A program made the translations under genes and the position numbers. Below the pieces are notes generated by a model. That model worked only from the letters and a program-made list of their open reading frames with translations. It was not told the DNA's origin and ran no database searches. A stretch of 64,000 nucleotides of DNA from assembly GCA_026874595.1 (NCBI GenBank), contig CM049307.1, forward strand, positions 94,090,330-94,154,329. Reading direction: 5' to 3'. The DNA is from Sipunculus nudus (lineage: Eukaryota > Annelida > Sipuncula > Golfingiida > Sipunculidae). Below are positions 1,861 through 60,716 of the stretch, piece after piece. Positions within the stretch are counted from its first letter, which is position 1. Each line of letters begins with the position of its first letter.

Positions 1861-2089
1861 ATGATTCCTGCATACTTGTGGACTCCAGGCTTTCACTATG
1901 CGGTATCTCGAAATATCTCGTTTGACGAGATATTACACGAGATATTGTGAGACTTGTAATATAATCAAATAACACTAATTGTATGCTACCTGATGCAAAA
2001 AAACTAGACCTCTGTAACTTTAAAACTGACAAAGTTAGAAAAATAAGACCACATATTTTCATATATCAGCACTTTTCCCTGAAAATGCG

Positions 2090-3158: not shown

Positions 3159-3523
3159 CCGGTTTCTGTGGCTCAGGGGTAGAGCGCAGGACTCAAAGCT
3201 GTGAGTTCGAATCTCAGCCGAGGCGGTGAGTTTTTTCACGGTCGACCCCCACCCAGGGTGAGAGCTTTGCAGGCTTAATGGGGAGACTGTGCCCATCAGC
3301 TGTGTTTTACTCACAAACGAGTGCGCCTTTCGGGGCTGTTATGACCGAGTAATGATGATGACACACACTCCGAAGGAGTAGTATACCGAACCTGGTTGAC
3401 ATCAGTAAAATTCGGATATGTCCCTGTCAAGTAGTCCGAAACCGGAATGGAACTCTGCAGATGAACATATATTAGTTAAGCAAAGCATTAAAAAATGGAG
3501 GCGGTTACCTCCATAAAAAAAAC
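3159..3523 (+). mobile_element. tRNA-derived SINE, full-length copy with 14-bp target-site duplication
   Basis: The head has pol III A-box-like TGGCTCAGGGGTAGAGC and B-box-like GAGTTCGAATCTCAGC. The body includes CGAGTGCGCCTTTCGGGG and the tail ends in a short A-run. CTAGATGTATGCAA occurs immediately before (3145-3158) and after (3524-3537), a clear target-site duplication of the kind left by LINE-driven insertion. Three further partial copies occur in the window. Confidence 0.8.
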
Positions 3524-3537
3524 CTAGATGTATGCAA

Positions 3538-5558
3538 TCACTAAACGAACCCCGGAAGCCTTCCCGTACTGAGTGATAATGTTGAATATGACCTTGGCAA
3601 TAAGGTCAAGGGCCAAAATAAATATATAAATACTAATTGAAACTGACATTCATCAAACAGACTCAACAGTGCAGAGTAAAACCACAACTGTAGAAGCGCT
3701 TTACCTTTACCGTTCTACACTCTGCATTTTGACTTTAGAAATGTCGACTTTCGAAAGTTTAATGTGTCCAAACAATGATAGTATACTTTTAGAAATACTT
3801 CAGTCAGTCAGGGTTTGATAAAGGCATAGAACATGATACAACACACATTCTGGGTTTACAAGTTTTGATAATACATATCTTTTGCCAGTGACGGATTGCC
3901 TTAGTGGAAAAATAGGTCATTCAGAAATTATACATAAATTTGTGCAATAGTATAGTAGTCATCTTGTTGAAATAATCTGTACATGGTATATTACAGTATA
4001 AATGAGAAAAAAGTGCTATTTATATATGAACTTAAAATCCATGGGGTAATTTATTCAAATATGTTATTATTTATTTTTATTTTATTTTTTTTTATTTTTT
4101 TTTTTTATTATTTTTTTTTTCTCTGCTTAATTTGGTCCTTCATTTCCTGTGATATTTTTCTCTTCTTAAACGTGCGAATTTATGTCCTATCCATGTTTGT
4201 GACCTTTCTTTCGTACTTTTATTTTCTAGGGAAAATTATGACTTTATTTCCTAGTAATTTGTTTCCTGGAACTATTTTTCCAATGTACAGCCATATACAC
4301 ACGTGAACAATAAAGCATGAGTGGAAACGAACCCTTCGCATGATATCAAAAAGGAACGGACACGCGGATATGGCAGATACCAGGGCTCATAACAGCTGTT
4401 CCTTGTATCCGGTAACGCCTGCTGTTTAGATCAAGATGTCCCAGGGGCAGACGCCAGGTTCATGTATATTGGTCTTACAGCTATTGGTCTAATATATAAA
4501 ACACACAACTAGAGGGGCTGAGGATTTCTTGCTGGGTTTACACACTTTATAGGTGAAGATACATCATGTAGGCCTACATTGTTATTTGACCATGAATATA
4601 ACTTTTTTATGGGCCATAATAAAAATTCCTTCAGTTTGATAGAGAGTATTTCTCTAGGATTGCCAGCTGCCAATTCCGAAAGAAATAATTCCTGACTTTT
4701 CTCTGACTTTCAGTTAGTTTTTAAAGTATAAATCATCATGCAACTTTTGATGTTGGTATCAAATCGCCCTTTTACGGCCAACTCAACAAAAACATTATTG
4801 GAAATTGTATGGGACACCAGAATCATACATCAGATTCTGTTCTTTTAGTATATTAATGCTCAGAAACAGAACAGATCCATCATCAATTTTTTGGTGTTTT
4901 ATGTTGTGTGTCCGTATTCTGTATCATCAATCTTAGATTTTTATACAAAAATTAAAAGGAAAGAAGCTTAAATCTGCAAACTTATTGCATTTTATAAGGG
5001 TTGCTAAACTCTTTAAGCCTCATAACTGACTTTTCCCTGACTTCCCATAATTTCAAAGAATTCCCTGACTTTTTCCTTATCTAAAAAAAATATCCCCCCA
5101 CCCCACCCCCCCCCCCCCCCCCACCCCGACTTTTCCCTGACCGCTGGAAGCCCTGTTTCTGTTATGTACGGCATTAGCTGTAACTAGAAATCAGCATTCT
5201 AATAATTGCAAGCCTTTATGATTAATTTATTCGGCCGATATTCCGGGGTCATTCCTGCATAAGTGACGGTAGGTTTGTGACTATTCTTCATGACATTCCT
5301 GAATCCGGAACATATACCAGAGTCACACCAATTATTTACTTTAATCGATTATTCATTGGGCCATTCCCATAATGTCCTTAACATTTAATGAAATTAAATT
5401 CATGGTTGCTTGAGTTATGTTGTATACAAAAACATGTTGAACACACAAACATACACACACACAAACACACGAACGGGGATGAACGCATTATATAATCTCC
5501 GGGTGGGGACTATAACATCTATGTGTTCTTATGGTATATTCGGATATCTAGCTGACAT

Positions 5559-5851: not shown

Positions 5852-8800
5852 CTAAAAGGAAATCGTTCCGCGGATGAAAATAGTTCCTTTTCCAGTAAGC
5901 TCTACTCGATCACCGTCCTTGACCTTCATTTCGGCGATACCACCACGACTGGAACACTGACGAGCTGAAATTGCATTTACGTTCTACAAATAATCCTAAG
6001 TGGAGAAAAATGTCAATATTTGGAAATCTCAAGATAATTTTCCATGAAAATTCTTAAATTACAATGTAATCAGTACATTTCTAACGAGTAATCATTATAT
6101 CATCTTAACAGCTATTTTTAACAGCTATATTATATGTTTATATATATATTTAATTTACTAACTATGAAAATCCCCTATACAGAATACAGAAGAGAGAAGA
6201 GAGCATGACACTGATGAACAAGGAAACGTCCTTCTGACGTCAGGTCACATGAGGAGGGGATGTGCCATTCGACTTGAAGCTATATAATTTACATACAATA
6301 TATAATATATGTTAAAATATATCCATATAGAAAATGTATATGTAATAAATATATAAATTTGTATTGTATATTATATATTTGTATGATATATTTATATAAC
6401 GTACCGTACATCTCCTTCTTCCCTAGCTGTTTAGACCAATAATGGGATAGTACAGTGTGTGCAGCACCTGAAGGAAACATATAAACATGTGGTTTCATGA
6501 TATATGTTAACGATACGTAAAACGTATGAAACAACATCACACACGTTGTCCAATCCTAGGAAAATTCTTAAAGAACCTCTGTAATGTAGCTGTAAATCGG
6601 TATGTTCCGTGTATTATTACAAAGCACGACATTCGTTTTACTTCAACCAAGGAAAAATTAACTCAAAGGATTGTTTAATAAGACAGTATTTTATATCTTT
6701 AACCAAACCTGTGAAAGGGTCCTCGTCAATTCCATACCAGGGAGCGAAAAACCTCGAAACAAAGTCAAAAGGTTTTCTAGTTTTATCCATAAAACCTCTA
6801 TCGGGATCGGCTTTCATGGTAACGGTTACCATGGAAACGCGATCGGTGGAAGCTTGGAGTCTGCGGATGTCTGGCTGGAAGTTCTCAAACTCTTCCAGTG
6901 ACAGTGAGTCGGGCAGTCTGACCAGCAGCATAGGGAGGCTGGCGTTCCAGCTGACGTCTACAGGCTTATGACCACAGCATAAAATCTGAAAAAAAATGCA
7001 CTTTTTCATCAGAGTTTAAGTCAGGCACTTTCTGCACAATCGGGTCTGTCAAAGTTAAAAGACCGATAAAAAAGTTTAAGTGTGATAAAAAGAGTAGCCT
7101 TCTTTGAAATAAGGAATGAAAAATAGTCAAGTTAGCTACAATTCCTCATTTTTTATAACAGACTAAATAAAAATCTGTATACTATACTATGTATGTATAT
7201 ATATTGCTCCCAAAGTCAGAGGCTTGCATCGTGCATATCCCTTTTAACACATAAGGGTGTTTTTAACAAGATGTGGCACATGTTTGACATTAGCATGCAC
7301 ATAGAAATTGCGATGTATTATATACTTGTTCTTACTGGACTGTTATATAAGGCATGAAAAAGGATATCTCGAAATCATTTTACTGCTAAAACACTGAACA
7401 AAGTCCTGTTGAAAAGTCTGAAAAAAGAGGAAAAAGCGTAATTTTAAGTAAACCCTGAAAGAGTGATTTAAAAAATTTATTTGGCAGGCCTGACAATGTA
7501 AGTAAAAAGTTGTAACTTTGTTTATGACATACAGAATGACTTAATTCACCTGCAACAAGACAAAAACAATTTAAAAAACCTAACAATTAAAATAAAAATT
7601 AAAATCAGTCGACAGAAAGATAAAGGTTTAACAGTCTTTCATAACTATATATCAGGCTATTTTGTGACAGGACTTTTATATATAAGAATATGGAAAGAAA
7701 ATTATTACCAAAAATGCGCCTCATTCCATTTTCTTCCCGACATTTTGCATCCGGGATCCATGTATAAAGTTAATTTGTTGTGTAGTTTGGCCAAGGTCCC
7801 CCCCCACCCACCCAATTCTTTCTTGAGATTATCTATTCGTCCCTGATCCATGCTTCATTCATTAGCCTAGAAGTGAAAATGTTCAGTTCCCTACAGCTCT
7901 TTATTGAAAGACTTTCCATTTTTTTTCCATTTCTTACAGCAGCAAACCATTTATATTTAACGATCATTCAATATAAATCCAAATAATGTCATTGCCGGCA
8001 GTACTGGAGCCAAAGAGGTAGTAACTGTCCATTTTTTTAAACTAACATAACTCTTTTACTTGACCTATATATTAAGAGAATGTTGGCTGGCTTGCAGATT
8101 TCTACTTTGTTCTTTCTCGACCTGTCTCTTAACATACATGTAAAAATACATTTTCAGACACAATACAGAGAGGGTTATATCACGGTTATATCTTTCCTCT
8201 GCATTTGACCAGTTGCGTTCTGTTTTGATACAGATTTCCCGTTTTCTTTCCTCCTTCTTTTCCCATTTTATTCTAGATAATATACACAAAACATGAACAA
8301 CACATTTACAGACAAAACCACAAAGGGCGATATCACTATTATTATTATTATCTTACTGGTTTTGTTAAATTTTGCTCAGGGTTTCCTGCTTTTTTTCTTA
8401 TCTCTTATCACTACCTCTTTCCCCGTTTTTTTTTCCTACCTCTTTTCCTGTTTTTCCTAGTGGTAACTCAATTGTAACATTCTCGCCGGTTCTCTGACAA
8501 AACAGACTTCCACTGTATAATGTTTCGAACTCGATGACGTCATTCACATTGCCTAAAATGTTAATTAAGAGACATTTTTGTATCGTGCGACCAAAGCCGA
8601 TCAACAGTTTGCAAAATATGTTTATATTTTCCCGATTCGCTGATAAACTGAAATACAAATGTATAATGTAGACATCAGTTCAACTGATTTTCTTTTGTAG
8701 ATTAATAATAAAAGAAATTTTAATGACGTTACATTAAAAAACTATATCTTTTGTGGAAATTTCCATATATCATTCATATATATCCCAGTTTACTGTCATT

Positions 8801-21600: not shown

Positions 21601-24600
21601 ACTGAATGAAAGAATTAAAAGTCTTTAAAAACAGAGAGTATAACATAAACATTATTGAAAATGAGATGGCACATGCATGTAAAAGAAACAAATACCAGTT
21701 TATAAAACATACTACATTTACATTTTTTACAGGATTTTTACGTTTTTATCTGGAGTAATGGAAAAAAATCTCGATTTTCAAAACATTTTAAGTTAATATT
21801 ATGTTTTTACAACTTTGGTGGTGCCACTTCACACGTGTACACAGCACACTTTACCAACCACGACGTGAATTTGGTTAACATTTTCTTTACATTTGTAACA
21901 TAGTAGGCCTACATGTGTTGGTGAATATTTGTCAATGACCTCAGTCGCATGCAAGGCCTTGGACTTCGTGCGACCGTGTGCGACTGTATAAGGTCAAAAA
22001 AATAAAAATAAAAAGTATGGTTTTCAGGCACTGACCGCGACAATTTTACAGTCCCCCCCCCCCCCCCCCACCCCCGCATCAAAATTTTATTTTGATGTTC
22101 ATCTTTCTAGAAGATGAAATAATGCAATTTTGGTCAGATACCCTTTGTTATGTAGTGCTTTTGCGTGTTTAGCAAATTAATTCTGTTATTTTAATGCTTT
22201 TCCCTGATCATATGAAATTGTTATCGAAACAAACAAAACAAAGGTTAATTATCGCCTACGCTCTTTACACAGCGCTTTACCTATAGGGCTACTTCCTATA
22301 TCGTAAGGCGCTGTTTTTTATGACCTTGTATCCTGCTTTGCAACACCAGAGGGGAGCACTGTATTTTTGTCCAATCAGATGAAACTTTGTGCTGGAAGAC
22401 AAAGCCAAGCGAGGAATACACGGAGCCAATCATATTCATTTCTTTTTGAGTGACAGCTCATCCCCCAGCGTAACCGTCTAAACAGGCCACAGGCTTAGAG
22501 AGAATTGCCCCTGACGTGGTTTGCTAAGGGCCTTGGGCACACAGGATGCTCGGCCGGTGAGCTGTAATTCAAACAAAACGTAACAACAAAGGCTGCGTGC
22601 ACACCTCGCTGGCTGGTTTCAGTTCTGCAGACAACAGATACATGGCTACGCTAACACAGTCATAATGTCATAATCGAATCGGTCGATGATGCGAGAATGC
22701 AGAGGGAGCAATATAAATTCGACCGGAAACTCATCAAACGGCGCTTGAAGCGCGGCAATGGACGGAGCCAGGATGCCTGTCGAGTGTTTGTTTATTGGCA
22801 TCTGATTGGCTGCTTGTCACATCGTACGCACGTTTATTTCAGTGGACAACAAACCGCCATCTGGTGTCTAATTATCTCATAAACGGTCAAAGCTGGCAGC
22901 GTGAAAATCAGTTGCTTCTTTAGAAGCGCAAGATTTCCGCTGCCTCGGGAGCGTAATTATCGCCCGGCCTCACAGGTTTCTGAAAAAAAGTGCCTGAGAA
23001 CCATACCTTTGTTTGGCCTGTCCATTACGATTTACTGCGACCCGGTAGAGGTGCACTCAAGCACGAAGTCACGAAAAGGGCTCCCGGTCGCGGGAAGGCT
23101 TGCAAAACAGTTCTTTCAAAGATCCCCCTTTTGAGAAGGGATCGCCGGTGGGGATTATTTCGGGCCGGTCACCACGAAATGTAAGAAAACCCCAGATAGG
23201 GCCCCCGGAGTAAAACTCTGTCCCGCCATCACACACCCTATGGCCTTTGTGTTACCGGGCCCAAAGACACAAAGAAAAGAGGCGCCCGCGGGGGAGCAAA
23301 TATTAAAATTATTAATTTTGCAGGTAATACGCAAATATTGCAAATAAAAGGGGGCGGAATCTCTTCGGACAAACCCAGAGCATATGTAAGTCGAAAATCA
23401 CAGCAATCCGTACGGCGGTATCAGAGGAGATACGGAAAATCACAAAAATCGCCTTACGCTATTAATATATAGATTTTAAATGTTCGTGGGAATTGCGATT
23501 CATCACAATATTCAGTGTGCGTGACACTAGTGACAAATGAGAACTGAAGCTTCATAAACATGGTCCATCGCATATTTGGTAAATGCCACGCCTTTGTATG
23601 AGGTCAAATTATAAAGTTCAGTGATTGTACGCTGAACTGATTGAATATTACGGTTGACGTGTTAATTGGTTATCGATCGATTCAAGCTGACCGAAACGGC
23701 TCTGACAAAAATATCGATAAGATTTTTGATAGTTTTGAAAAGAATCGATACCATAGGCTACCGATGGCTTTTACAAGAATCGGTGCGATTTTCGATGGTC
23801 TTTAAACGAACCGATACCTCTCACAATAAAATCGATACGATTATAAATGGCTCCGATTACTTCCGATGGCTCTGACAAAAATGGCATGATTATCAATGGC
23901 TCTGACAAAAATAATACGATTTATTAATGATATAAAATCGACATAATCAATAAAGAGTTAAAGACAATGTTCATTAGCTCGTGCGGCAGACCGAGCGTGT
24001 TTTTCTTTATCCTAAACTTATATCGCATGACAAACATGTCAACTAAAACTTGCATTTAAAGCAAATAGAGTGAAAAAATTGGACATAAGATTAACTTTAA
24101 GAAAATAAGATCTAAGACTCTACACTGACCTGTAAAATGATCCTCGCGAATCCCGAACCACGGGGCAAAAAACCTGGACACAAAGTCAAAAGGTTTTCCA
24201 GATTTATCTGTAAAACCTCTCTCATGGTCTGCTTTCACGGTAACGGTGAACATGCGGAAGCGTTCAGTAGAAGCCTCTAGTTTGTTGGTGTCTGGCTGGA
24301 AGCTCTCAAACTCTTCCAGAGACAGCGTGTCTGGCAGTCTGACTAACAGTAAAGGAAGGCTGGCGTGTCGCTTGACGTCAACGGGCTGATGACCACAGCA
24401 TAATACCTGCATATGTATAATGTTTTGGTAATTTGAGAGTGAAAGAAAGTGATGTGATTCACCGTGCTTGTTCATTTTAGAGATTGAACATGAATACACA
24501 TTACTTGAATACAATATATCTATTCCCGTTCGGGGACTTTCCTGTGCATTCATGTTCCATCTCTATCTCCATATTACTACCCATCTTTAAAAAAAAACTT

Positions 24601-31695: not shown

Positions 31696-32507
31696 TTAAT
31701 ATGATGATACTCTCGGAGACATGGGGAAGGTCTTCCTGAGGCCCATACACTTCTCTCTGTCAATGAAGAGACTGTTGTTCTTGACGGACAGGTCTTGTTC
31801 CAGGGACGACTTGGTCCTCAGTAGCTGCTGCAGCGCCCCCTCGGCTTCTCTCAGCTTTGAATTCAAGTTCTCCACCGTCGACTCGATCTCGCTCACCTCA
31901 GTCACCAATCTACAAAGTTTAACTAACCAATTTAACCATTGGTAGTGTTACCTCCGGAGAGGAGGGTTATGTTATCGTTTGTGTTTGACTGACGCCTCTG
32001 TTCATACTTAAAACTAGTTTTCTGAATCCTGGTCCAAGGAAGAATTTGTTTGTCCTTTTGTTGGTATGAATATTCAGTAAGCAAATTTATCAAAGGAAAA
32101 TGACCTTGAACAAAACTGGTGCTTATCCCTCTCATCATATGCAACTCATAAATAATCAAAGGCCAGTAAATAAAGTGAAACCTTAACTTTACGACCAACA
32201 ACAGGACCTCGATAAAATTGTCGAGGTGATCGTCTAAGGGAGGTCTGATATAAAGAACAAACAAGATTGACACAGTGGAGGGGTGTTCTTTATTTTCAAT
32301 TGGTCACTAAACAGAGTTGTTCATTAGGCAATGTTTAACTGTATTAGATTCATAGTGTAAAGAATATGGAGACCTTTTAATAGACACAGAAAAAAAAGTA
32401 GAAGATAGACAAACACACAGACAGAAAACATTTAATCTTTCTCAACCTAAACACACTAAATACGTTGTAGACAGATAACTTGATTTGTACCAAGCATGCT
32501 ACATTGA

Positions 32508-32593
<86 letters not shown>

Positions 32594-35500
32594 TGTGTAG
32601 GTGTCTTTGTTAATAACTAACCTTTGCTGTACGGGGTCTCGACACATCTCCACGTTGGGACGTCCAGCTCGTGTTGACAGACGGGTCTGAGCTACTTTCA
32701 TTGGCGCCTCCTTATCTTGTGTAGTCTTCTTCAACAGCTCTATGTTACGCTCAGCATCAAAGATCTCTTGTAATACCTGAACAAATAACATGAATAAACG
32801 TTACTTATATTAAAGTTTCTAAAGTGTGTACTTTAGTTTTAGTTTTAAGGTTGGACATAAATTTCACTAATTAGTTCAAGCCTTGGGCTGTCCATTTGTC
32901 TGTGTGTTTGGATGTTTCACTGTGTGCATATTTAGATCCGATCAAAGTCATCCAGCTGTTGAAGTGTTTTGTGACGAAAGGATAGATACGGCACGATTCA
33001 GACTATAGGAAAAGAAAAGGTGACGAAACTGAGAGTGAACAGTTAAAGTGTGAAAAGTGAAAACCTTTCTCTTACCACCTCAGCTTGGGGAAAATGTTTT
33101 TAAGTGTAAATTGTTAGCGAATATATTATTTGTAGATTATTATGCGCGTCCCCCTGGGCTTGTCTCCCTTTCATAGCATTTTTATTGAAACTTCAGGTTA
33201 TTCCCCTTGAAGAAAAATGCCAAATTCCCCAACTAACATTTGACAAAGCATCGGTTAATTACGTTGGGCTGTCCATTTGTCTATGTGTTTGGATGTTTCA
33301 CTGTGTGCATATTTAGATCTGAGTCATCCAGCAGTCGAAGTGTTTTGTGACGAAAGGAAAGCTACTGCTCCAAGATGTGATCGACGGGTGCAAATTTAAC
33401 GTAATATGCCGTATTTATAAATAAATTAACTATAGTAATTGAGGAAAACATATTTTTAAAGAATATTTATGTAGACATCAGTTTAACTGAGATCTAGAAT
33501 TTGTTATCAAGGGTAGTTTTCAAGGGGTTGACGTCACTTCAGTACGCATTTAATAACTGGAAGCTCTTAAAAATCTGTACAAGCTCGTTTTTTAATAGAT
33601 GGAATTGTGTATAAGTGAAGGGCTCAGTTTATCCAAATTCTAAAGGAATTACTTTTCGTTAGCCAAATGCCTTAAAGGATAATGGTTACAATAAATGTAA
33701 CGTAAATATCCTTGGATTAATGATGAATTTCTGTACTTCGAAGAAAAAAATCATTTTTCAGTACCAATACCTGGATAAATATATATAACGTAAGTATTTT
33801 CTTTAACCGTCTGTGCAGCTCTCTCACAAAGAGGGCCTGCAACAAGTGCTGACACCTTGCGGGGGAAATTGATACTAACACTGACCGCAAACAGAGTCAG
33901 TTCTTCTTGAGACGATAAAGGTTGAGAATTTGCAAAGGTGTGTGCTAGAGTACTCTCTAGTATAAAGTATGAAGTACAAAGCTTTAAACGCTTTTAGAAC
34001 AGTTTGTTCATAAACAGTCAAAAGTAAGAATATTATTATTATTAGAAAATGATATGCTACTAACCTGTGACAGGTGGTTCTGGAGGTTTTGTTTGGCGTC
34101 CATGCCCTCTTTGATCCTGTCAGTGAAGGCATTGTTGACCGTGTTCCACTGGCTGATCATGGCGGCCGCACACTTGTTGAGGAGGGATTCGATCTTGTTA
34201 CGGTTACCTCGTGAGGCTGCCCGCTCTCTCTGTGAACGCTGGATGTTTTCATTGCTGAATTTGGCCCATGTCTCTGGCACGGTGATCCTTTAGTTATATA
34301 TTTCGATAACAGATCTATATATTTACTGGATATTATATTTGTTATACAAATAGACACATAAAATTTGCACAGATGTGTTTTCATTTATTAGGTATGAATG
34401 ACCGCTATTATTATGATGACAATAAAATACTTCATCTTTTAATCTCTCTTCTCAATTCCTGTCATAATAGTGTTGTTGTTGCTGATGTTACTACTTCTAC
34501 TACAATTAGTATCATGATCACCATCATTTTTAATTTATTATTATTATTACTATTTTTATTATTATTATTATAACTTGAATTCCTTAATTCTTTTCCTTCG
34601 AATTAACATGTTTATTAAAGGAAATTAAAGGAGTTTAAACTCATGAATAAACCACCAGTTTAATATAACTCTCAACATGAATAGATATATAATGAGTTTT
34701 AATTGCTATTTTCCACGCAGTGTGACGTATGTGCCTATGGCATCGCGTGATTGCGTGTGTGTATGTGTAATAGATAATATCCTTACGTGTTGTCTATTCG
34801 CTGGACGCCATCTTGGTACCTGAGACCACGTGACGTGTCTCTAAGCTGATGGCAGGCGTTGTCCAAGTTCATGGCTGTAAATTTGTCGGTACTGTCTTTC
34901 TCAAGTTCATGGTGGGCGGCACGATTCAGACTATAGGAAAGGAAAACGAATTATAAATCATGTATTCTTTTTAGCACCCTTTCATAGAACAGAAAACCCT
35001 AATTTTAAGACAGAAATTTGTGAAACGAATTCTATTGAAAACAGCATATGACAGAACGGTTCTTGTAAATGCAACATGTCTAAAAAAAGTTTATTTTTGA
35101 GCAACAGCAATATTAAATTAATTCATATAGCATCATTAGGTGACGAAACTGAGAGTGAACAGTTAAAGTGTGAAAAGTGAAAACCTTTCTCTTACCACCT
35201 CAGCTCGTGGAAAATGTCTTAAAGTGTAATTGTTAGCGAATATATTATTTGTAGATTATTTGGGTAAATTCGCGTCCTTCTGGTCTCCCTTTCACAACAT
35301 TTTTATTGAAACTTCAGGTTATTCCCCTTGAAGAAAAATGCCACATTCCTCAACTGACATTTAACAAAGTATTGGTTAATTACATAGATGTCAGAAATGA
35401 TTGACACATGAGGATTTGATTCAAGACTTTAAGTGAGAAACTGTTTATCTCAGTTGCTGGACCCTTGTTTATTGTCACCAAAATGTTAATTATTCCTCCA

Positions 35501-36808
35501 TGTCGCCATTGATTGGAACAAGTCATGGAAGACCTGTAAGTTGGAAATGTTGTAATTTGAAAATCAAACGACAGATGGCAGCAAGTGCGATTTCAACCAT
35601 TGCCAAACCTGATTCTCAGGGACACTGACACCAATGAACATTTTGATACACACGGTCATCTAGTAGCTAAACATTGTTATAAGCTTAAGGAAATACAGCT
35701 ATATTTAATGATTGACTCACGCAAGCTGGTAGTTGGAGTCCTGTAATAGTTTCCTCATTTCTTCCTGACAAGTCTTGAGCGTCTCCACCTCCTGGTGAAA
35801 TGAGTAAGATGAAAAATATGGTTAAAGTGATGAACGGGACTCGGAAATATAAAAAGAGATATGGGAAATTATAAGCAAAACTTATTCATATCTCCCAAGC
35901 ACGACTGCTACCCTCAAAAAGAGCAATATTTGTAATATTATATCAATTTTTGTGAGATATAATTGTGGTATTTCGTAAAATGATTGGCAAAAACATGTTA
36001 GACGATTTATCGGATGACAGTTAAATGAGTGTTCACTGTATTAAGAAAGGCATATCTTAATGTGAATGCATACAAGGTTTATGGGTAAATGTGTTTTATA
36101 TACCTTGATAAGCTGTTTCTCCACGTTGTCATGCACAAGGTCAATTCCTTGTCTTTTCTCTCTGTTGGTCAGACATTCTTGGGCGATTTGTAGAGGCCTT
36201 TCAGTGTCTGCCAAAGCCTTCTCCAGAACACCCTTAGAGCGCTTCAGAGAGTCTGTTTCAGTAACCATGTTGTCTATCTCATTATTGACCTCCTTCTTCC
36301 AAAACTGGATATCATCAAGCCGTTCTCTGAGCTTTTTACTGACGTCATTCTGTGTTTTCTTCGTCTTATCATCTGCGTCTCGACAAAGACGCGCGGTTTC
36401 AGAACGCACGAGCTGTGAACCACTACGCACGCGATCAGAAGCCAAAAAGTTACTCTGGTTTGAGGAAACCCAGTCGTTAGGTGTATATCTTGTATTGAGC
36501 GCGTTTCGTGTGGCTGGAAACACAGTTGGTACCTTAACAGAATCCAGTTGGCTTAGCTGGTTTTTCATAGACTGTGTTTCTGATATCTTCACATTGGAAG
36601 GGGTGGCTGGCCCAGGCTTGTCTGTTGGATAGTAGGTATTCGACCTCAACGGCGCGTTACCGAGGGACTGCTCCCGTGCGGAGGTGTCGTAAGCTTTGTA
36701 GGATGACTGCGCAGTGCTCACGGGCAACCGGAAGTTGGTTCCCGTGCCGCTGCCTGTGCGTGGATATGTCGTGTAAGTGGCGTTCTTTGTCTGTCCAAGG
36801 TACTCCAT
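31696..36808 (-). CDS. TEKT3: Tektin-3, complete, six coding exons
   Basis: Coding exons in transcript order: 36104-36808, 35721-35791, 34787-34930, 34065-34287, 32622-32776 and 31696-31909. Borders are GT/AG, phases agree, and the total is about 503 codons, close to vertebrate TEKT3. The start is the ATG at 36808 (MEYLGQTKNATY); a methionine 30 nt further up lies before a splice acceptor (CTTCCAG, exon end 36821) and is not used. Diagnostic stretches are RYTPNDW, FWKKEVNNEIDNM, REKRQGIDLVHD, VPETWAKFSNENIQRSQRER and the tektin nonapeptide RPNVEMCRD in exon 5. Tektins are coiled-coil filament proteins of ciliary and flagellar doublet microtubules; TEKT3 is associated with sperm flagella. The N-terminal proline/serine-rich stretch fits tektin-3 better than tektins 1, 2 or 4. 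A candidate RFX-type element lies upstream of the 5' untranslated exon. Confidence 0.93.
32510..32589. repeat. (CT)n microsatellite, ~80 bp, in tektin-3 intron 5
   Basis: Uninterrupted CT dinucleotides. In the transcript this is a GA tract beginning about 31 nt after the exon 5 donor. Confidence 0.98.
32885..33361 (-). repeat. Ectopic copy of the tektin-3 intron 2/exon 3 junction, flanked by 95-bp direct repeats
   Basis: 32995-33266 repeats two stretches of the real locus. One is about 34915-34940, including CCTATAG and the first 14-16 nt of exon 3. The other is 35139-35390 of intron 2. The roughly 200 nt between them is missing. Direct repeats beginning GGGCTGTCCATTTGTCT lie on each side (32885-32985, 33267-33361). 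The whole sits in intron 4. Confidence 0.8.
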
Positions 36809-36821
36809 GATACAAGGGAAT

Positions 36822-38948
36822 CTGGAAGACAACATGTGTATAATCGGATATTATATTATGTACATTTATCTTGCCACATCGAAATATGTACAAGATGCTT
36901 TGTTAATTCCCATTTAACTGTTCAATATTTTCGTAATTGCAGTTTGAGAAAACTAAAACGTTTGATTATCAACGTCACAGGTTTTTCATTTTTTTTTAAC
37001 TTATAAACATATGTTTTAATTATAATTTCTAACAAATACATGCGCTTAAAACTAACTGTAGCTTAAATTGTATGAAGTGATATTTATAACTGAGAGTTAT
37101 AGGTTGCTGATACACGTAATATAAATTAAATGTAAGCTACGAAATGTGGTATTCGTTATAACCAGCTTAAGAGACAGTGAGGTCATGATTTCCAGTCAGA
37201 CTGCAGCTAACCATCCTGAAAGTCGAGACCTGTGATAGACTAATCTGTTCGCACTGGCTGCTGAATAAAATTATAATGTTTGAGGTATCCATACAATATA
37301 TACTTTTATTACCAGTCTTCTTGATTTCAGATTTTGCATCACTACGCAGGAGGCTTCGTTACAATCTGTCGAGAAGACATTAAAATGAATGTCTTGGGTT
37401 CGGTGGAGGTTGCAATATTTTGCCTTTGAGAATTTTGTAGGGGTGCGAATCGAAGACCTTAGGGTCCGTACGCTATTGCCTACGCCCTACTCTATCCAGA
37501 GATGGGAATGTTAATTAGAAGATCATTATTAAAATTGGACCTGAATAGGACTATATGGATTCTGAGGATGGCATTTCCAGTCAAACCACAGTCATTATGT
37601 TTAAGCATTATGCTAGTTTGACACTAACTGGGAATAGGTTTGTAAACACTAAGATACATACCACCTAATTTTTTTTTTTTTTGGGGGGGGGGGGTTTATA
37701 TCACAGTTGAGCTGTACAAAAGGAGACGAAATCCATGCATTATAAGTTTAAGATTAATGCCACATAATAAATTGCAGTTGCAGTTATAGCTTGACCAGCA
37801 AGCTACTTAGCAAGGGACACCTAATACATCCCCGCCGGTCGTGTACAGGTCACTGGGGTGATATGTATCACAGTGACGTAGTTTGCACGCATTATACATC
37901 ACACAGGGCTATTGATGAAAACGTCACCGCATGCAGCGGCAGCAAATACAAATTAGTCCCTATGAAAATATTACATAATTAATACCAGGTTATTAAAATA
38001 TCATCGGTTTAACGAATTCAGAAATGAGACATGTACTAGTTTACTTAATTAATTTAACGAACTCTGACTGGCCACCCAAGTTAAAACCGAACATTTGGGC
38101 TTATCGTGGTATACGGTTTGATAATATAATAAACGTATCATACCTATCAATGACAGTAACTTTTCCTTATAATCAATATGGACAATGATCCCCTTCTCTT
38201 CTGGCTAACTGTTACGTATACATAACCTGGATCACATGACATTTCTTAAAGCTCAGTGTCTTATTTGCACACGTGCAGACATCGTATCGTTATGAAATGA
38301 TAGGCGCTTTATTTAATAAATTCCACACTTAATTCCCAAACCGGAATTATCATATAAAAAATATTAAAAGCGCATGAGATCTGTTTCCTTAATCGTTATT
38401 TCTCAATAAGGGAAACTAACTGCATATAAAGAGTAAGAATTCACCAGTTTTTAGGAGAAACGACTATTTTGAAAAGTAACATTTTCTTCTTTCTTTACAT
38501 AACGTTATGTACAGATTTCTGATGAATAAAAAATACGTGTTACAAATTTTGAATACTTAATTTTTTTCAAAAATTTAAAACATGAAAGAAAAATGATAGA
38601 AGAATAAATAAATATTTGTCTGCAGATAGTTATATTTTTTTTATATTCTTTACCCTGGGTTTAGGAACAACTTTAAGGAAATACATATGAACTTTAAATT
38701 ACATATACTTTGTCAGGTCAAAACTGGAATTTATCTTAGATGTAGGTTTTCCTGAGTTAGAGGTCAAAACATTAATGATACCTTTACATGACGCCCTAAG
38801 TGTTTAATTCAGATTTCTTTCGTATATGTTCATGACTTTCAATTCTAGTTTTCTATGTTTGTGACATATCTAATGAAAAAGTATGCTACTGTAGAAATAG
38901 TTTTCATTTCTCAGCATGGAAAGACAATTCAACCATTGAAGGTTTTAC
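36822..38948. other. Probable 5' intron of tektin-3
   Basis: AT-rich, with a T-run/G-run at 37670-37694. No coding frame recognised. Confidence 0.45.
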
Positions 38949-42068: not shown

Positions 42069-42140
42069 CTCCCTGACGGGGAATCGAACCCCGGCCGCGG
42101 CGGTGAGAGCGCCGAATCCTAACCACTAGACCATCAGGGA
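42069..42140 (-). tRNA. tRNA-Glu (CTC)
   Basis: The minus strand folds as a standard 72-nt tRNA. The acceptor stem is TCCCTGA/TCAGGGA, the A-box lies in TGGTCTAGTGGTTAGGA, the anticodon loop has CTC in GCGCTCTCACC, and the B-box is GGGTTCGATTCCCC. It matches the conserved animal tRNA-Glu-CTC almost throughout. A T-rich pol III terminator (CTTTTGTTTTC) follows within about 10 nt. Confidence 0.95.
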
Positions 42141-42663
42141 CTTGTAATAAATGCTAAAGTTTAAATATATATTCCCTATTATTAAATCTAACTTTCTTGT
42201 TTCTCATTTTCAGGTTTCAATCCCTGCTGTTTTAATTGTTTTAAAGTTACATCTGTTCTAAAAATGATCCCATGACAACATTGAAAGGCTTAAACGAGCA
42301 ATATTTCACTAGTTTATCATCGGTATAAATTAATCATGTAATAATAAATAATTATAAATAAAATTAAAATTACAAATCAAGTTTTGACAAATCAGCATTA
42401 TGTAATAAAACATATTTGTTTTTAGATATTTCAATAGAATTTCTAAGATGAATATATTGGATACCCAAATCAAGAACTGATTCCGTCTGTGGCTGCTAAA
42501 AATAGCTTTCGAGCATCATGCATATTAAGTTCCTATAACCGACACGAGGTGGCGGTAAGATCAGTGACAGTATTGCATCATCTTTTTTGGGAATTCCCCT
42601 TCTCCGCGCCTGATTGCTAACCAATACATGTTATAAACCAAACGTGAAACAGGTTGTGCGTTG

Positions 42664-42736
42664 GACCCTGTGGCCTAATGGATAAGGCGCTAGCCTCCGG
42701 AGCTAGAGATTGTGGGTTCGAGTCCCATCAGGGTCG
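42664..42736 (+). tRNA. tRNA-Arg (CCG)
   Basis: A 73-nt cloverleaf with acceptor GACCCTG/CAGGGTC and discriminator G. The A-box is TGGCCTAATGGATAAGGC, the anticodon CCG sits in CTCCGGA, and the B-box is GGGTTCGAGTCCC. It is nearly identical to the conserved animal tRNA-Arg-CCG. A TTTT terminator lies about 16 nt downstream (near 42753). Confidence 0.95.
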
Positions 42737-43130
42737 TATGTCATTGATAACCGTTTTGTAAAATTATTCCTGTTTTTACTATTAATTTGACAAGTGGTGT
42801 ATATGCATATCCTATGTTTGTTAGGTACTCTCAGCTGACATGTGATGTAGCATATATGTACCCTATGAACATTCACAAGAATCATATATTATATATGTAC
42901 CCTTTGAAAATTTCTTAAGAATCATTTTTACTATATTAATACTATTTTTATTATTATTTAATCATCCTCAGAATTAATAATTTTAATCAAATGCTAGCTC
43001 TGTTCCACAGCGGGGTGACAATTGATATTTTGTAATATTTTCAATTCATCAATATCAAATTTAAGTAGGCCTGGACCTAATCTACAATTAATGAAGCCTT
43101 GAATGCATGAAGGATAAATATATATATATA

Positions 43131-43359
43131 TATAGATGGAAAGGGTATACACAGAAAAGTGGTTCACTGCCAGTGGGATTCGAACCCACGATCTTCCGAT
43201 TTCCGGTGCGGCTGCCTTTGTCCACTTGGCCATGACAGATTCCCTCTTAGTCCACTTGGCCATGACAGACTAAGGCAGCCGCACCGGAAATCGGAAGATC
43301 GTGGGTTCGAATCCCACTGGCAGTGAACCACTTTTCTGTGTATACCCTTTCCATCTATA
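43131..43359. repeat. Perfect 88-bp inverted repeat containing a tRNA-like sequence
   Basis: Arms 43131-43218 and 43272-43359 are exact reverse complements, around a 53-nt centre that carries a 19-bp direct repeat (TCCACTTGGCCATGACAGA) twice. On the minus strand 43167-43239 is tRNA-like. The acceptor is CTGTCA/TGGCAG, the A-box TGGCCAAGTGG, and the T-arm GTGGGTTCGAATCCCAC, followed by TTTT. The anticodon arm pairs poorly and lacks U33, so it is a degenerate, probably Ser/Leu-type relic. The second arm copies only its 3' three quarters. Confidence 0.85.
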
Positions 43360-47737: not shown

Positions 47738-50700
47738 TCATACGGGTGCCATGCCAATCACGCGACGCAGCTGTTCAAAGATGAAGAATGTGACTATAGT
47801 GTGCGGACCGATTCTCATCCAGTTAGGGATAAAGCCTTTGTACAGTCCGTGTAGTCCCTCCGAGCGAATGGTCTTCCATGCGCAGTCAAAGGCGTTACGG
47901 TACGTATCTGAAACATAAAATAGACAAAGGCGTTACGGTACACATTTGAAACATAAAAGAGTCAAAGGCGTTACGGTACACATCGGAAACATAAAATAGT
48001 CAAAGGCGTTACGGTACACATCTGAAACATAAAACAGTCAAAGGCGTTACGGTACATATCTGAAACATAAAATAGTCAAAGGCGTTACGGTACACATCTG
48101 AAACATAAAACAGTCAAAGGCGTTACGGTACACATCGGAAACATAAAATAGTCAAAGGCGTAACGGTATACATCTGAAACATAAAACAGCCAAAGGCGTT
48201 ATGGTACACATCTGAAGCATACATAGTCAACCGCATTACGGTATACATCTGAAACAATACAGTCAAAGGCGTTACGGTACACATCTGAAGCATAAAATAC
48301 ACTGACGTGACTCAATAATCCAGACTATCTAGAAATCTCACTCAGATAGCCTTGAAAGTCAAAACATATCCCTTTAATAGCCTTGAAGGCCAACAATTTC
48401 AGGCAGCCTGTAAGCCCAATTTTTTACTCAGATAATCTGAAAACATAAAAAGGTCACCCAGATAACCTGAAAAACCGACCGCCTGACCCATATAGCATAC
48501 TGAGACCAGCCACATCACTCTGAAAGGTAACAATATATTCAACTTTACTCATTCTTTGTACAAGGAAAACAGACTAGAAGGCAAACAAGCAGACGGAGAA
48601 ACTGTTATTTATGAGTGAAGTATTTTTACGAAGGTTACCTTTGCCCTTTTGGTTCATGACTCTGGTTTTTACGACATCTACGGGAGACGTAGTAAGCGCT
48701 GTGACGAAACCAGCAAACATGGAGGAGGCCACGTGGAGCGGAATGCCCTCTTCGAACAGGTTCAGATTTAACAGCGTGTGCTTCGTGTGGTCGTACGCTG
48801 GAATCTGCAAGGACAAGAAACATCTCAAATTAGGGTCACCTTGTAGCTATATACAATAAACCGTCTCCTTTGCACGCCTGGTCGATCAAATTTATTTTAG
48901 GTAGCACCGTCTGCTGCATTCATTTTGCTCAGTAAGATTTAATTAACTATAGTCAACCCTGTTGAAGCAATGTAATAAAACAAGATACAGGTCAGAGACA
49001 GGCGCAAAATCTCTCTTGTATTTATAACTATGATTATACCCTCATATTGCATTTTGAGTTTGTATAATGACCTACCTGAGTAGCTGTTAGGATGGCGGCT
49101 CTTTGTCCGGGGGTGTATTATGACCTACCTGAAAAGCTGTTAGGATGGCGGCTCTCTGTGTGGGGGTGTATTATGACCTACCTGAGAAGCTGTTAGGATG
49201 GCGGCTCTCTGTCCGGGGGTGTATTATGACCTACCTGAGTAGCTGTTAGGATGGCGGCTCTCTGTCTGGGGGTGTATTATGACCTACCTGAGTAGCTGTT
49301 AGGATGGCGGCTCTCTCTCTGGGGGTGTATTATGACCTACCTGAGTAGCTGTTAGGATGGCGGCTCTCTCTCTGGGGGTGTATTATGACCTACCTGAGTA
49401 GCTGTTAGGATCGCGGCTCTCTGTGTGGGGGTGTATTATGACCTACCTGAGTAGCTGTTAGGATCGCGGCTCTCTGTGTGGGGGTGTATTATGACCTACC
49501 TGAGTAGCTGTTAGGATGGCGGCTCTCTGTGTGGGGGTGCATTATGACCTACCTGAGTAGCTGTTAGGATGGCGGCTCTCTGTGTGGGGGTGTATTATGA
49601 CCTACCTGAGTAGCTGTTAGGATGGCGGCTCTCTGTCCGGAGGTGTATTATGACCTACCTGAGTAGCTGTTAGGATGGCGGCTCTCTGTGTGGGGGTGTA
49701 TTATGACCTACCTGAGTAGCTGTTAGGATGGCGGCTCTCTGTGTGGGGGTGTATTATGACCTACCTGAGTAGCTGTTAGGATGGCGGCTCTCTGTCCGGG
49801 GGTGTATTATGACCTACCTGAGTAGCTGTTAGGATGGCGGCTCTCTCTCTGGGGGTGTATTATGACCTACCTGAGTAGCTGTTAGGATGGCGGCTCTCTG
49901 TGTGGGGGTGTATTATGACCTACCTGAGTAGCTGTTAGGATGGCGGCTCTCTGCCCGGGGGTGTATTATGACCTACCTGAGTAGCTGTTAGGATGGCGGC
50001 TCTCTGTGTGGGGGTGTATTATGACCTACCTGAGTAGCTGTTAGGATGGCGGCTCTCTGTGTGGGGGTGTATTATGACCTACCTGAGTAGCTGTTAGGAT
50101 GGCGGCTCTCTATCCGGGGGTGTATTATGACCTACCTGAGTAGCTGTTAGGATGGCGGCTCTCTGTGCGGGGGTGTAATATGACCTACCTGAGTAGCTGT
50201 TAGGATGGCGGCTCTCTGCACAGTAGGACCGACACCAACATAAAGCCCCCTGACTCCTTGTGACTCCCAGATGACGTAGAAGGCGTGGAGCGTGTTTTTG
50301 TATCGTCTCTGTTCTCCGGGCATCTGAGCTTGAAATCTGACCTTTACCAGGTCAGTGGGCGTGGCAATCGAACTTCCAACAGCACCTGTATTTATAGGTA
50401 AATAATATGAATAATTAACACATACATTTTGCATATAGTGTCAAACGTGGATGTTCTTGGTCTTCTGCTCTGCTCTCCCACCACCTTCTAAAATTGATTT
50501 TAAACGAGCATATACAGATTATTAGTAGCCTTTATTATTGTAAAATTCGGCAAAGTAAGAAGATAAGATTATCATTGAGAATCAAGTCACACAAATGACG
50601 GAAACCCTCGGACTTCTCATCCAGGCGCAAATGGTATTTAGTTGACTTTTCCTCCGATAGATGTCGCTTACGTTTAGGATACAAACAAAATTATTTTTAA

Positions 50701-56700: not shown

Positions 56701-59160
56701 CAAAATCAATAAGTTATTTATTCAAGCAAAAAGACCCATAAATATGAAGTTTGAGTCAAACTGAGTGATGCATAGATGTGGCATATGTGAAAGACTGAAG
56801 GTTTTGGTTGAACAGTTACACTTGAAATATGCTCACAAGCATTTAGAACAATTAAATATTGTGACCTTGACCTTTGACTTTTTGACCTCAACATCAATAG
56901 GCTTCTTCCCTCATTGGTAGGTAAGCCATATATGACAGATGGAAGGTACAGATTGAAAAGTTTGCCTGAAAATGACTCCACGCAAGAAGTGGGTGCTGTG
57001 AACTTGACCTTTGACCTCAAAATTAATAGGTCTTTTCCCCTGTTGGCAGAGAAGCGATATCAGTGCTGGAAGGTTTGGAATGAAAAGTCTACCTTGAAAT
57101 GTGTCCCCAACCTTTTCAAAGAAGTGGATCCTGTGACCCTGACCTTTGACCTTGTGACCTCAAAATCTATATGATTCTTCTCCAACTTAGTAGGTGAGCT
57201 ATATGTGAAAAATCAAAGAATTGGGATGAAAGGGTTGGCTTAAAATGCATCCACAGGCTTTTCAAAGAAGAGGCTCCTGTGACCTTGACCTTTGACCTTT
57301 TGACTTAAAAAAAATTATGGTTCTTCCCCTGTTGGTAGGTGAGCTGTATGTGAAAGATGGAAGGTTTGGGATGAAAATTTTGTCTCAAAGAGTTATTTCT
57401 GGGGGGTGCCAACACACCCCATAACTCCGAGAATATAGGTCGCAGTGACCTAATTTCAGGTTTGCAAGGAGATCTTTTTATAACCTCTAAGACTGCATAG
57501 GGTTCATGGCCCTAGCCCCTACGGTTAAGATTTGTGCCCTGCTAACGGACGGACGGCCGGCCGGACGGACAGACGGAAGGACGACGGACAAAGACCCATC
57601 GCTATAGCCCAGCATGACTGAAAGTCAGCTGAGCTAAAAAACCTGAGTTATTATACTGATAACATGCTTATTTGCTTCGATTAAGATTTTGGCCTGGTTA
57701 GTTATGAACAGAGCCAGGGGAATTCTAAAACAGGTTGCTGGAGACATCTACTGGAGAAGGCGTAAACTATAGAAGAAGATAACAGTACATGTATATCTAA
57801 CCTGAGATGGCGCCCGCACATATTTTCTTCCACAGCGGGGTGTGGGCGGGATCTGTGGCTCCGAACAGTTTCTTTATTGGTTCGTAAGCTCCTAGTCTGA
57901 TGGTACTGTATATACCCTCACGCATCAACGAGGCTGTCAACCTGAGGGGTCAAAGGTCACATTAATATTCATTAAGGTCAACTACGTGAAGAATATCGCC
58001 TTAATAGCGTAGCTCTGATTGACTGTCCTGTAATATTACTAAAAGGAATTGAAATCATACTTTCTCTGTGTTGGAATTCAAAGGGTGAAAAAAATGAGCT
58101 CACATATATTTTCGTCTTCTTTTCATCTTAGACAAAAAAGACAATTTCTGAGGTAACAAAAAATTTAGACCAACGTTTATTTTACCAAAGTTTTACTAAT
58201 ACGGTTCCTGTACACAGGAAATGTCATCAGGTCCCAGCCATTTCAACCACCAGCAGGGGGCGGTAACGTGTGATTTTCAAAGCCACTGTTCTAGGGACAC
58301 AGCGACAGTCACAACTTATAATTTCCTTTTTACATCTTATGGCCTCATTATTACAGACCATGAAGCCTCTTTGTAGACTGGCCCAGTCCATGAAATTGGT
58401 TAGACTTAATTTTGCCTCTGACAGAGAAATCAAACGTTCCTGCGTTGTATGGCACTAAGTATCGGTACCGCCACCTTGCGACAACTCAATCTCTTATTTA
58501 CATTAGGAACCTCTTAACTTTTTATGTTCCAGTCATGCAGCTTAGGTCATCTGACCAAGGGCTTTTAATGATTCCTAAAGCACGAAGTGAGATGTGTCGT
58601 TCGAGAGCTTTCTCAGCTGTGGCACCAAGGTTGTGAAATGAACTTCCGCACTCAAGCAGATCTTCATCATCTTTAGCTTCTTTTAAAAGAAATCTTAAAA
58701 CTTACCTTTTTATATTAGCTTTTGGTAATTCTTAGAAATATGGGTTTTCTTTTAGGAATCTTTGCTATAGTAGGAATCTACGTTTTATGTTTGGTAAAAC
58801 TGTGCTTTATATGTCTTGTAAAGCGCTTTTGATAACCATTTTGTTGAATTAGCGCTATATAAATTAAATATATTCTTCTTATGATTATATAACTAATTTA
58901 CCACTCTCTGGCTGTTAGATATAAGATCCGACACGGAGTTACGTTTATCGGTGCATGGAATCACGTATTATTTACGCATTTAGTACAAACATAAATACTA
59001 ACGCCCTGGCAGGGCTAGTTTGAAGTCCTACAACTCCCTCCTCATTCTCAGAAGAATATTCTATTGCCATGTAAACGTACCTCCGTTAACCTAAGTCCCA
59101 TTGCATTTTCATATTGGAAATGAAAAATCACTGGATAACTTTTTTTTTATTTTTACGATC

Positions 59161-59210
<50 letters not shown>

Positions 59211-60716
59211 ACCCTTTATATAGCCCTCTGGGACCCTCCTCCTGTACAATTCTGACGGATCCCCTGAAGAATCCTCGGTAATACCGGGTGGACATGGCGG
59301 ACATGACGCCTCCCTGACGGACGGATAGTTCCTGGTCAAGCTGCATCCGGATCTTAATCACGTCAATCGGGTTCGTAACTGAAAGATACATAGAAGTACA
59401 GTCAATTTAGTAAAGGCTAGACCTTTCTATTTCTCTGCCATATATATTGTCAATAAGTTGCACTTATTGCCAGTCTTAAGAACATCTCAAGCTCAACTCC
59501 TGAACTTTTATTTTGATCAACGAACACAAGAGGTTGTGTATCTCTCGTGCCGCATGCAGACGTCGCCACCTGTCAAGCATTTTATCAGAAAAGGCCTTTC
59601 GCTAACTATTAAACCCAAACCAAATGCTACCGCCCACCTAAAAAGACAACCCCTGGTAACACGGCTACCCAGCAGACCAGTGGAAGAGCACAATCGCTAA
59701 TACAGAGTCAGGTTTTCTTGTATTTACTCGATACTGTATTTCATAGTTCTGTTTTATCAAGTGACCCCCCCCCCCTCCACCCCCCAAAAAAGAAAGAAAA
59801 TTTAAAGGATAACATGTAACAGACTCCTGGTGGCCGGTGCAGTCCAACAATCCACGTGTCACTGGTATCATCCTGCTAAGAATGTATGATTTCTGCAGTT
59901 CGGGATTCAACAGGACAACAGTACGCAGAGGTGATAGGGAACGTCAGTGGCGTCAATTTTTTCTTCCGGGGGAGTGGGGTGGGGCTTGTAGAGTGTAGAT
60001 AGACACAAACGCGTGCGCGCGCGTGGGTGTGTGTGTAAATTTTAAGTTCGTTTGAGCACCGTGTTATTACTCGGAGTTTCACGCTGTTGCCGGTATCCGT
60101 TTGTTTGTGTGAAACTTTAATCGCCCTCAAAAGAAAAACCTACGAATCACACCTGTCTAAAGCGAAATCCGAGTCTTAATTGATTGGATTGTGTTAAAGG
60201 TGAAAATTATGAGAAAGTCCTCGATCAAAGGGAGAACACATACAATTGGCAAGATATCATGTTTGATATTCACCATATGCATTATAGATTTCACATTATA
60301 TTCTAAATGATATGTTATCCAAGCCAGCTAACACGCGGGCGGATCATTTAATGTATATTAATTAGCTACCAGTTGCTATGGTAACGTCCTTGGGGCTTCA
60401 ATAATGGCGTGTTGTGTATATTCTGCCGTCCTAGTGCCCTGGATTGATTTGAGGTCACCACCCGGACCCCAAACGACCCGGACCGCAACAGCTACCCCTA
60501 AACACAAGTGTGCATGTCAAGCAACCCAGTTCAGAGACACAAACTGAAGCGCCCGCGACAGCTAGCAGACGACAGTTTTTTCTCTGAGCAGACGACAGTC
60601 TGATATCATTGATCTACCATTGATGGGCGTGTCTTACCTGCCGCTGCACACATGCATGACGTTCCAGCAAGGATAAACCGCCACAATTCTTCGTTTTTCG
60701 GTCCTGTACCTCCCAT
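47738..60716 (-). CDS. Mitochondrial carrier (SLC25), uncoupling protein/ucpB-like, complete, six exons
   Basis: Coding exons in transcript order: 60638-60716, 59213-59378, 57802-57941, 50189-50385, 48639-48804 and 47738-47907. All borders are GT/AG, phases agree, and the total is 918 nt (305 aa plus TGA). The start is the ATG at 60716 (MGGTGPKNEELWRF). Three SLC25 repeats each keep the PX[DE]XX[KR] signature: NPIDVIKIR (exon 2), TPTDLVKVR (exon 4) and SPVDVVKTR (exon 5). GLYKG, GLYVGVGPTVQRAA and GLYKGFIPNWMRIGP follow in the usual places, and the length is normal for the family. It should be a six-helix inner-membrane transporter. It resembles the UCP/dicarboxylate/ucpB subgroup; the substrate cannot be read from sequence. 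Introns 4 and 5 contain tandem arrays built from the neighbouring exon junctions. Confident of the fold and structure; the exact subfamily is inference. Confidence 0.93.
47883..48300 (-). repeat. 38-bp minisatellite, 11 copies, carrying the exon 6 3' splice junction
   Basis: The first copy is the real exon 6 acceptor (TTTATGTTTCAG, then ATACGTACCGTAACGCC). Ten further copies at a strict 38-bp period follow upstream in the transcript. Each keeps TTTCAG or a close variant (some TTCCGATG) and about 24 nt of exon 6 sequence. Later copies diverge. Confidence 0.9.
49068..50192 (-). repeat. 53-bp minisatellite, 21 copies, each carrying the exon 4 5' splice junction
   Basis: Twenty-one units of 53 bp run directly into the real exon 4 end (50189 onward), which is the 22nd copy. 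On the minus strand each unit reads AGAGCCGCCATCCTAACAG, CTACTCAG, then GTAGGTCATAATACACCCC. It therefore holds the last 27 nt of exon 4 (RAAILTATQ) and its donor. Every unit also has an AG just before AGAGCC, so each could act as an in-frame 27-nt mini-exon. Units differ mainly at the CACACAG/CGGACAG/AGAGAG stretch. Confidence 0.92.
51070..54650. repeat. Field of dispersed GTAACGGAGTTGAT motifs in carrier intron 3
   Basis: The motif or its complement, with one or two changes, occurs near 51393(-), 51769(+), 52155(+), 52488(+, weak), 54149(-), 54174(+), 54189(+), 54341(+) and 54525(+), and I did not notice it elsewhere. The hAT element at 52.79-53.88 kb lies within the field. The rest is AT-rich without a gene. 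Confidence 0.6.
52789..53884. mobile_element. Non-autonomous hAT-type DNA transposon with 8-bp target duplication
   Basis: Terminal inverted repeats TAGAGGTGCGGACCGGACCG (left) and TAGAAGTGCGGACCGGACCG (right, reverse complement) are flanked on both sides by AAACAAAC (52781-52788 and 53885-53892). An 8-bp duplication and TAG-type ends fit the hAT superfamily. There is no transposase frame. Subterminal GGACCG motifs recur at both ends, and about 120 bp is duplicated internally (about 53245-53365 and 53365-53485). It lies in carrier intron 3. Confidence 0.85.
56500..57640 (+). repeat. ~140-bp degenerate tandem array ending in GACGGACGG and CAGCTGAGCT
   Basis: TGACCTTGACCTTTGACC-type blocks recur near 56868, 57008, 57138 and 57285. 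Each is followed by ATCAATAGGCTTCTTCC-like and AAGGTTTGGGATGAAAA-like segments. The 3' end has ACGGACGGCCGGCCGGACGG, CCATCGCTATAGCCC and CAGCTGAGCTAAAAA. The same terminus recurs at 45.93-46.02 kb. It is non-coding and lies in carrier intron 3. Confidence 0.7.
58450..58870 (+). mobile_element. 3' end of a CR1/L2-type LINE, degraded
   Basis: One frame reads LRSSDQGLLMIPKARSEM, RAFSAVAPRL, a stop where Trp is expected, NELPHSSRSSSSLASFKR and NLKTYLF. This is the typical carboxyl end of CR1/L2-like reverse-transcriptase proteins. A short 3' tail with AGCGCTATATAAATTAAATA follows. It is dead and 5'-truncated, and lies in carrier intron 2. Confidence 0.7.
59164..59209. repeat. (CT)n microsatellite abutting the carrier exon 2 donor
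   Basis: In the transcript the exon 2 donor is GTAAAGAGAGAG..., so the GA tract starts within the splice-site consensus itself. Confidence 0.98.
60372..60385. promoter_or_regulatory. X-box-like palindrome in carrier intron 1
   Basis: GTTGCTATGGTAAC differs from the ideal RFX palindrome GTTGCCATGGCAAC at two positions. It lies about 250 nt inside intron 1, downstream of exon 1. Function is unproven. Confidence 0.3.

Follow-up and report, generated by a model that had tools for sequence, protein, structure and literature searches.

The window, the whole 64-kb stretch of Sipunculus nudus DNA that was analyzed, carries on its minus strand a complete gene of six exons, with GT-AG boundaries at all introns and an intact product of 305 amino acids (305 codons). 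This protein matches the Pfam family Mito_carr in three stretches (E 1.9e-74) and, in the PDB, UCP2 (2lck) over query residues 13-300 (E 2.1e-65); judged by these matches, the gene is a UCP-type SLC25 mitochondrial carrier gene. In the gene model, exon 1, counted from the start codon, is 79 nt long (60638..60716) and is followed on the same strand by exon 2 (166 nt, 59213..59378), exon 3 (140 nt, 57802..57941), exon 4 (197 nt, phase 0, 50189..50385), exon 5 (166 nt, 48639..48804), and exon 6 (47738..47907), the last coding exon, which ends with the stop codon. Introns 1-5 measure 1259, 1271, 7416, 1384, and 731 nt. Two tandem arrays flank exon 5: a donor array (array 1), whose unit 1 is the end of exon 4, and an acceptor array (array 2), whose 3'-most unit is the start of exon 6. 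Exon 2 also borders a tandem repeat, the third such case in this gene: its donor gtaaagagag... passes directly into a (GA)n microsatellite of ~23 units (59163-59213).

Elsewhere in the window, a tektin gene lies on the minus strand at 31700-36850, with one exon matching Pfam Tektin (E 1.6e-38); no minisatellite is visible across its exon edges, and a long (GA)n lies ~30 nt after one donor. Weak PhzC-PhzF matches on the minus strand at 6641-7015 and 24059-24562 (E 1.9e-6 and 7.2e-5) probably represent two related genes, and three tRNA matches, on both strands, fall within 1.2 kb (42069-43239).

Structure of the junction arrays

Array 1, delimited by TRF and unit alignment, occupies the start of intron 4 (49046..50215, minus strand) and spans the exon-intron boundary at the exon 4 donor, as mirage minisatellites do. 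It is real and far beyond chance: TRF reports 21.8 copies of 53 bp with 96% matches and a score of 2092 (49061-50218), and the spacing is exactly 53 nt across all 22 units, from 50215 to 49046. Each unit joins the last 27 nt of exon 4, encoding RAAILTATQ, to 26 nt that begin gtaggt and consist of intron 4 or copied exon sequence. The sequence-only reading had described 22 tandem 53-bp units, each with the exon 4 end and a GTAGGT donor, and this description holds at all 22 positions; CAGGTAGGT (CAG|GTAGGT) is intact in 22/22 units, and only units 15, 16, 20, and 21 depart from the 27-nt exon end shared by the other 18. A search of the organism's own assembly, in which only the best candidates were scored, returned 22 matches, all within the array. 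Mean column identity is 0.972, and this overall uniformity accounts for the 22 intact donors. Across 21 units, the exonic columns are more uniform than the intronic columns (0.991 vs 0.952), with the variation mostly at a few positions near the unit end.

The same reading had placed an AG before every unit, as the makings of an acceptor. An AG does precede 21 of the 22 units (unit 22 has AA), but it need not be an acceptor: before unit 1 it is exonic (...ACTGTGCAG|AGAGCC) and falls within a Gln codon, so the AG before the later units is most simply copied exon sequence. On that count a unit would hold ~30 exonic nt, and the AG is therefore no evidence for mini-exons. The arithmetic proposed for such mini-exons is nonetheless sound, in that translation keeps the reading frame through a 27-nt insert (one insert yields a 314-aa protein) and the gap between neighboring mini-exons is 26 nt. 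Use of a later donor was correctly predicted to read into a TAA, which sits in the next ATCCTAACAG copy; donors 2, 3, 4, 5, and 22, those that were translated, each lead to a stop after 207 aa. Masking of the extra donors by RNA structure was considered and rejected, as the RNA of units 1-5 is less well folded than any of 200 shuffles (z +2.58) and the donors there are thus not hidden in strong structure.

Array 2, which the earlier reading had omitted, occupies the end of intron 5 (47884..48299, minus strand; TRF and sequence) and spans the intron-exon boundary at the exon 6 acceptor, again as in mirage minisatellites. Its 11 units of ~38 bp each combine roughly ttttatgtttcag with the opening 24 nt of exon 6, and the first unit spacings are 36 and 37. 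Eight of the 11 units, among them that of the real acceptor, have an intact AG. The next two copies, 38 and 76 nt upstream of it, have AA and CG instead, leaving 114 nt before exon 6 without any AG. Given that 3 of the 10 extra copies are broken, the chance that both nearest copies would be among them is 1 in 15, no more than a hint of selection for accurate choice of acceptor. Splicing to any of the seven intact acceptors farther upstream would alter the C terminus, with predicted proteins of 265-278 aa. The wrong choice of donor or acceptor would probably be harmful, yet the gene is intact.

Junction arrays elsewhere in the genome

Genome-wide searches covered the 1.43-Gb assembly (153 contigs) for three copies of a splice-site 9-mer with 25-55 nt between copies, with the reversed word as control. 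Tripled words exceeded their controls ~3-4 fold, with 426 matches vs 147 for CAGGTAAGT, 455 vs 121 for CAGGTGAGT, and 373 vs 106 for the acceptor-like TTTTACAGG, though a few long arrays dominate such match counts (the 100 matches listed for TTTTACAGG come from ~9 arrays). As a single word, CAGGTAAGT occurs 15,332 times vs 12,946 for its reversal; for the other two words the comparison is of match counts only, without single-word counts. Among the CAGGTAAGT matches listed, which run from contig C1 to 2.3 Mb of contig C5, 18 distinct arrays were counted by eye vs 4 for the one control word (p 0.007, one-sided binomial).

An exon piece could be located at the 5' edge of 16 of these 18 donor arrays (at L048 and L050 it was not found), and five of the 16 matched Pfam at E<1e-4, where the L039 match came from the whole exon, picked after inspection, since its 25-aa piece had no match. 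The matched families are TPR at L039 (E 1.1e-8), ABC membrane at L043 (E 2.5e-5, below Pfam's cut-off), 3HCDH_N at L045 (E 9.7e-7), an importin-13 repeat at L054 (E 2.1e-9), and thioredoxin at L056 (E 3.3e-11); four of the five exceed Pfam's cut-off. Longer or cleaner exon pieces at L044 and L052 still had no Pfam match. Two further candidates were not counted: a PH domain at L042 (E 0.023) and a DNA-PKcs assignment at L055, where six of six PDB chains were DNA-PKcs at E 0.61-0.88. At the 3' edges, in the 10 of 18 loci with an open frame of at least 30 codons reaching past the edge, none of 10 pieces matched Pfam at E<1e-3, and two weak hits stood at 0.0019 and 0.032. The comparison of 5/16 with 0/10 is weak on its own.

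Several of these arrays are long or double. There are ~100 copies over 5.3 kb at L045 and ~87 copies over 4.2 kb at L056. The TPR exon of L039 stands between a 51-copy acceptor array, with CAG intact in 51/51 copies, and a 62-bp donor array. The exon of L055 likewise has arrays at both ends, 3.8 copies of 39 bp at its acceptor and 54.5 copies of 37 bp at its donor. At L052 (contig C3), a 33-bp array of ~112 copies (4-3690 of the oriented locus) stops ~20 nt before a likely exon, one without a Pfam match, that has an 8-copy donor array at its other end. Tandem units of 280 bp near L041, L042, and L054, and of 180 bp near L047 and L055, possibly represent genome-wide satellite families.

As a sample chosen regardless of repeats, 20 carrier exons were inspected, and no array clearly crossed an edge. 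These exons were picked from 103 Mito_carr matches, mainly among those listed first, because their genes were apparently multi-exon, and are not a random sample; where each exon ends was read off its match and open frame in place of a gene model. At L068 a small repeat of 9 bp begins ~10 nt past the exon, and arrays lie in the flanking introns at L069 and L076. It follows that junction arrays occupy a minority of junctions. Their presence at other exon ends makes them look like a property of the genome and not of this gene.

The intactness of donors could be compared across 11 arrays, namely 10 of the 18 fetched loci and 21 units of array 1. Counting the real first copies, 375 of 417 units retained GT, vs ~373 expected from the squared mean column identities of the units. 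It should be noted that these figures exclude units >30% off the consensus, that eight loci were omitted without a fixed rule (most are short, though L051 has ~30 copies), and that the 10 loci were found via CAGGTAAGT, which slightly favors intact donors. Array donors thus mutate like their neighbors, and selection maintaining them was rejected as an explanation. The sequence-only reading had asked whether so many donors were tolerated or used, and had regarded their retention as otherwise unexpected. The question was the right one, the evidence favors toleration, and this count shows no special retention of donors.

Discussion

Tandem units that straddle exon-intron junctions are known as mirage minisatellites, and Canestro 2002 is reportedly the original paper on the Adh mirage. 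Ebner et al. (PMC3087553) describe mirages in the amphioxus globin genes BflGb6 and BflGb9, cite Adh3, and take the data to suggest no interference with regular splicing. PMC3902484 adds a mirage in PGBD5, cites troponin C, and concludes that splicing is undisturbed, which for PGBD5 the authors deduce without any transcript that covers the repeats. In these papers, amphioxus mirages are short tandem units of an exon end plus intron start, or of an intron end plus exon start, with both polarities known and splice signals kept in many units. The carrier-gene arrays have the same construction, with signals likewise retained in many units (donors in 22/22, acceptors in 8/11). They differ in copy number, with 22 and 11 units here and ~100 at L045 against 6 and 3 in the described BflGb6 haplotypes; in that one gene holds a donor and an acceptor array on successive introns; and in their host, the annelid Sipunculus nudus. 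Marker searches of the 1.43-Gb assembly also point to a protostome and, like its size, speak against amphioxus. No GFP match was obtained, where PMC2679011 counts 16 GFP-like genes in B. floridae, and a word of the protostome-specific microRNA bantam had one exact, bantam-like match, with 0 for its reversal and ~0.02 expected. The molluscan haemocyanin marker PF14830 had no match. Both family negatives are weak, since the GFP and haemocyanin searches had no match in the control genomes either. No protostome mirage was found in a literature search that covered part of the matching papers. The abalone TSSK1 minisatellite is described in PMC6905558 as lying within intron 3, and a paper on a prawn lectin (PMC7536079) was set aside as not relevant to junction arrays. 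The carrier-gene arrays probably belong to the published mirage kind, with more copies and in another phylum.

Most likely, both arrays are junction minisatellites that the gene tolerates, and the copy joined to the exon works through exon definition. The head-to-tail copies of the exon 4 end with the intron 4 start (22) and of the intron 5 end with the exon 6 start (11) would have arisen by tandem duplication, and the arrays may then have grown and become homogenized through unequal exchange or slippage. Only the copy that adjoins the exon body would be functional, with all others read as intron. Intron 4 is long (1,384 nt) and follows an intron of 7,416 nt, conditions under which splice sites tend to pair across the exon, and the donor nearest to exon 4's own acceptor should win despite 21 identical donors downstream. 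A donor array would be tolerated because it lies in a long intron with pairing of this sort.

PMC9225289 provides a parallel. It reports that exons beside long introns, given near-equal donors, favor the one nearest across the exon. In human cells, five minigenes that each offered two identical CAG/guaagu donors, with introns of 365 nt on either side, were spliced exclusively at the upstream donor. Array 1 presents the situation of those minigenes, so its tolerance can be explained without any function, although donor use in array 1 is here deduced from the sequence and a human splicing rule. The same source describes the downstream donor as preferred in ~60% of all human events, a pattern shared by all four intron classes; an upstream preference emerges only once donors are nearly equal in strength. 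Its acceptor data show an upstream preference, reduced under exon definition, that would be damaging for array 2 and for the acceptor array of 51 copies at L039, so acceptor arrays remain less well explained than array 1. Acceptor arrays should be the riskier kind; in array 2 the two copies nearest the real exon 6 acceptor on its upstream side lack AG.

Other explanations would give the copies a use. The number of units might tune output if later donors were chosen at some rate, with the stop after 207 aa sending transcripts to decay and a longer array meaning less carrier. All five translated later donors give this same early stop, and the human preference for downstream donors without an equal-strength filter, as given in PMC9225289, would favor their use, but the identical donors in the exon-definition minigenes described there led to the upstream site only, and the array donors show no sign of conservation as sites; such tuning finds no support here and is very improbable. 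Optional mini-exons, by which the transcript would sometimes include one or more 27-nt segments and add RAAILTATQ repeats to the carrier, draw on the preserved frame, the 314-aa product of a single insert, and the AG before 21 of 22 units. Against this, the AG is most simply copied exon, the 26-nt gap rules out neighboring units as a pair, the tract ahead of the AG is short, and the carrier would probably fold poorly with an insert. The greater uniformity of the exonic columns speaks little for mini-exons when the variation sits mostly at a few positions near the unit end, and we regard them as very improbable.

Recursive or self-correcting splicing would treat the junction CCTAACAGCTACTCAG|GTAGGT as acceptor-like sequence plus donor, such that the error of using a wrong donor could be repaired when donor 1 is spliced again, now to the last CAG, and the normal mRNA is restored. 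The unit does offer a branch-like CTAAC, then CAG, then GTAGGT, with CAG|GTAGGT juxtaposed in 22/22 units, and the arithmetic yields a normal junction. A ratchet site would also call for a pyrimidine tract, however, and no good one is clear, while just ~11 nt separate the branch-like A from the CAG; this route is extremely improbable. An assembly artefact, with an inflated unit number or a misassembled array, would be in keeping with the error-prone nature of tandem arrays but is scarcely credible here, where the units of array 1 differ from one another, the ~1.2-kb array is short against a long read, its sequence matches at one place only among the candidates scored, and separate arrays occur at other loci.

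Tolerated junction minisatellites can also be compared with repeats that have changed gene structure. PMC2812944 describes human segmental-duplication genes in which minisatellites average 30-bp units in four copies, some at exon-intron boundaries, with exon/intron changes between paralogues, often alternative transcripts, and novel introns; unlike in those genes, the structure of the carrier gene looks unchanged. PMC4974935 describes intron gain by tandem duplication of AGGT or of a boundary segment. The likeness is that splice sites come ready-made when a tandem duplication crosses a junction; the difference is that here the copies lie inside existing introns. No new intron in former exon sequence was found in the carrier gene, whose six-exon model needs no extra intron.

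Whether junctions themselves seed minisatellites in this genome, on the donor and the acceptor side and sometimes at both ends of an exon, is an idea that we hold tentatively and consider somewhat doubtful. If true, seeding would link repeat instability to junction DNA or to co-transcriptional splicing, and mirages would count as a widespread feature of animal genomes and not an amphioxus oddity. The carrier gene itself offers a natural test of exon definition, with 22 identical donors in near-identical context that differ mainly in their distance from the exon body. With arrays at several genes outside amphioxus, mirages become countable across animals, and junction arrays constitute raw material for intron shifts and intron gain.
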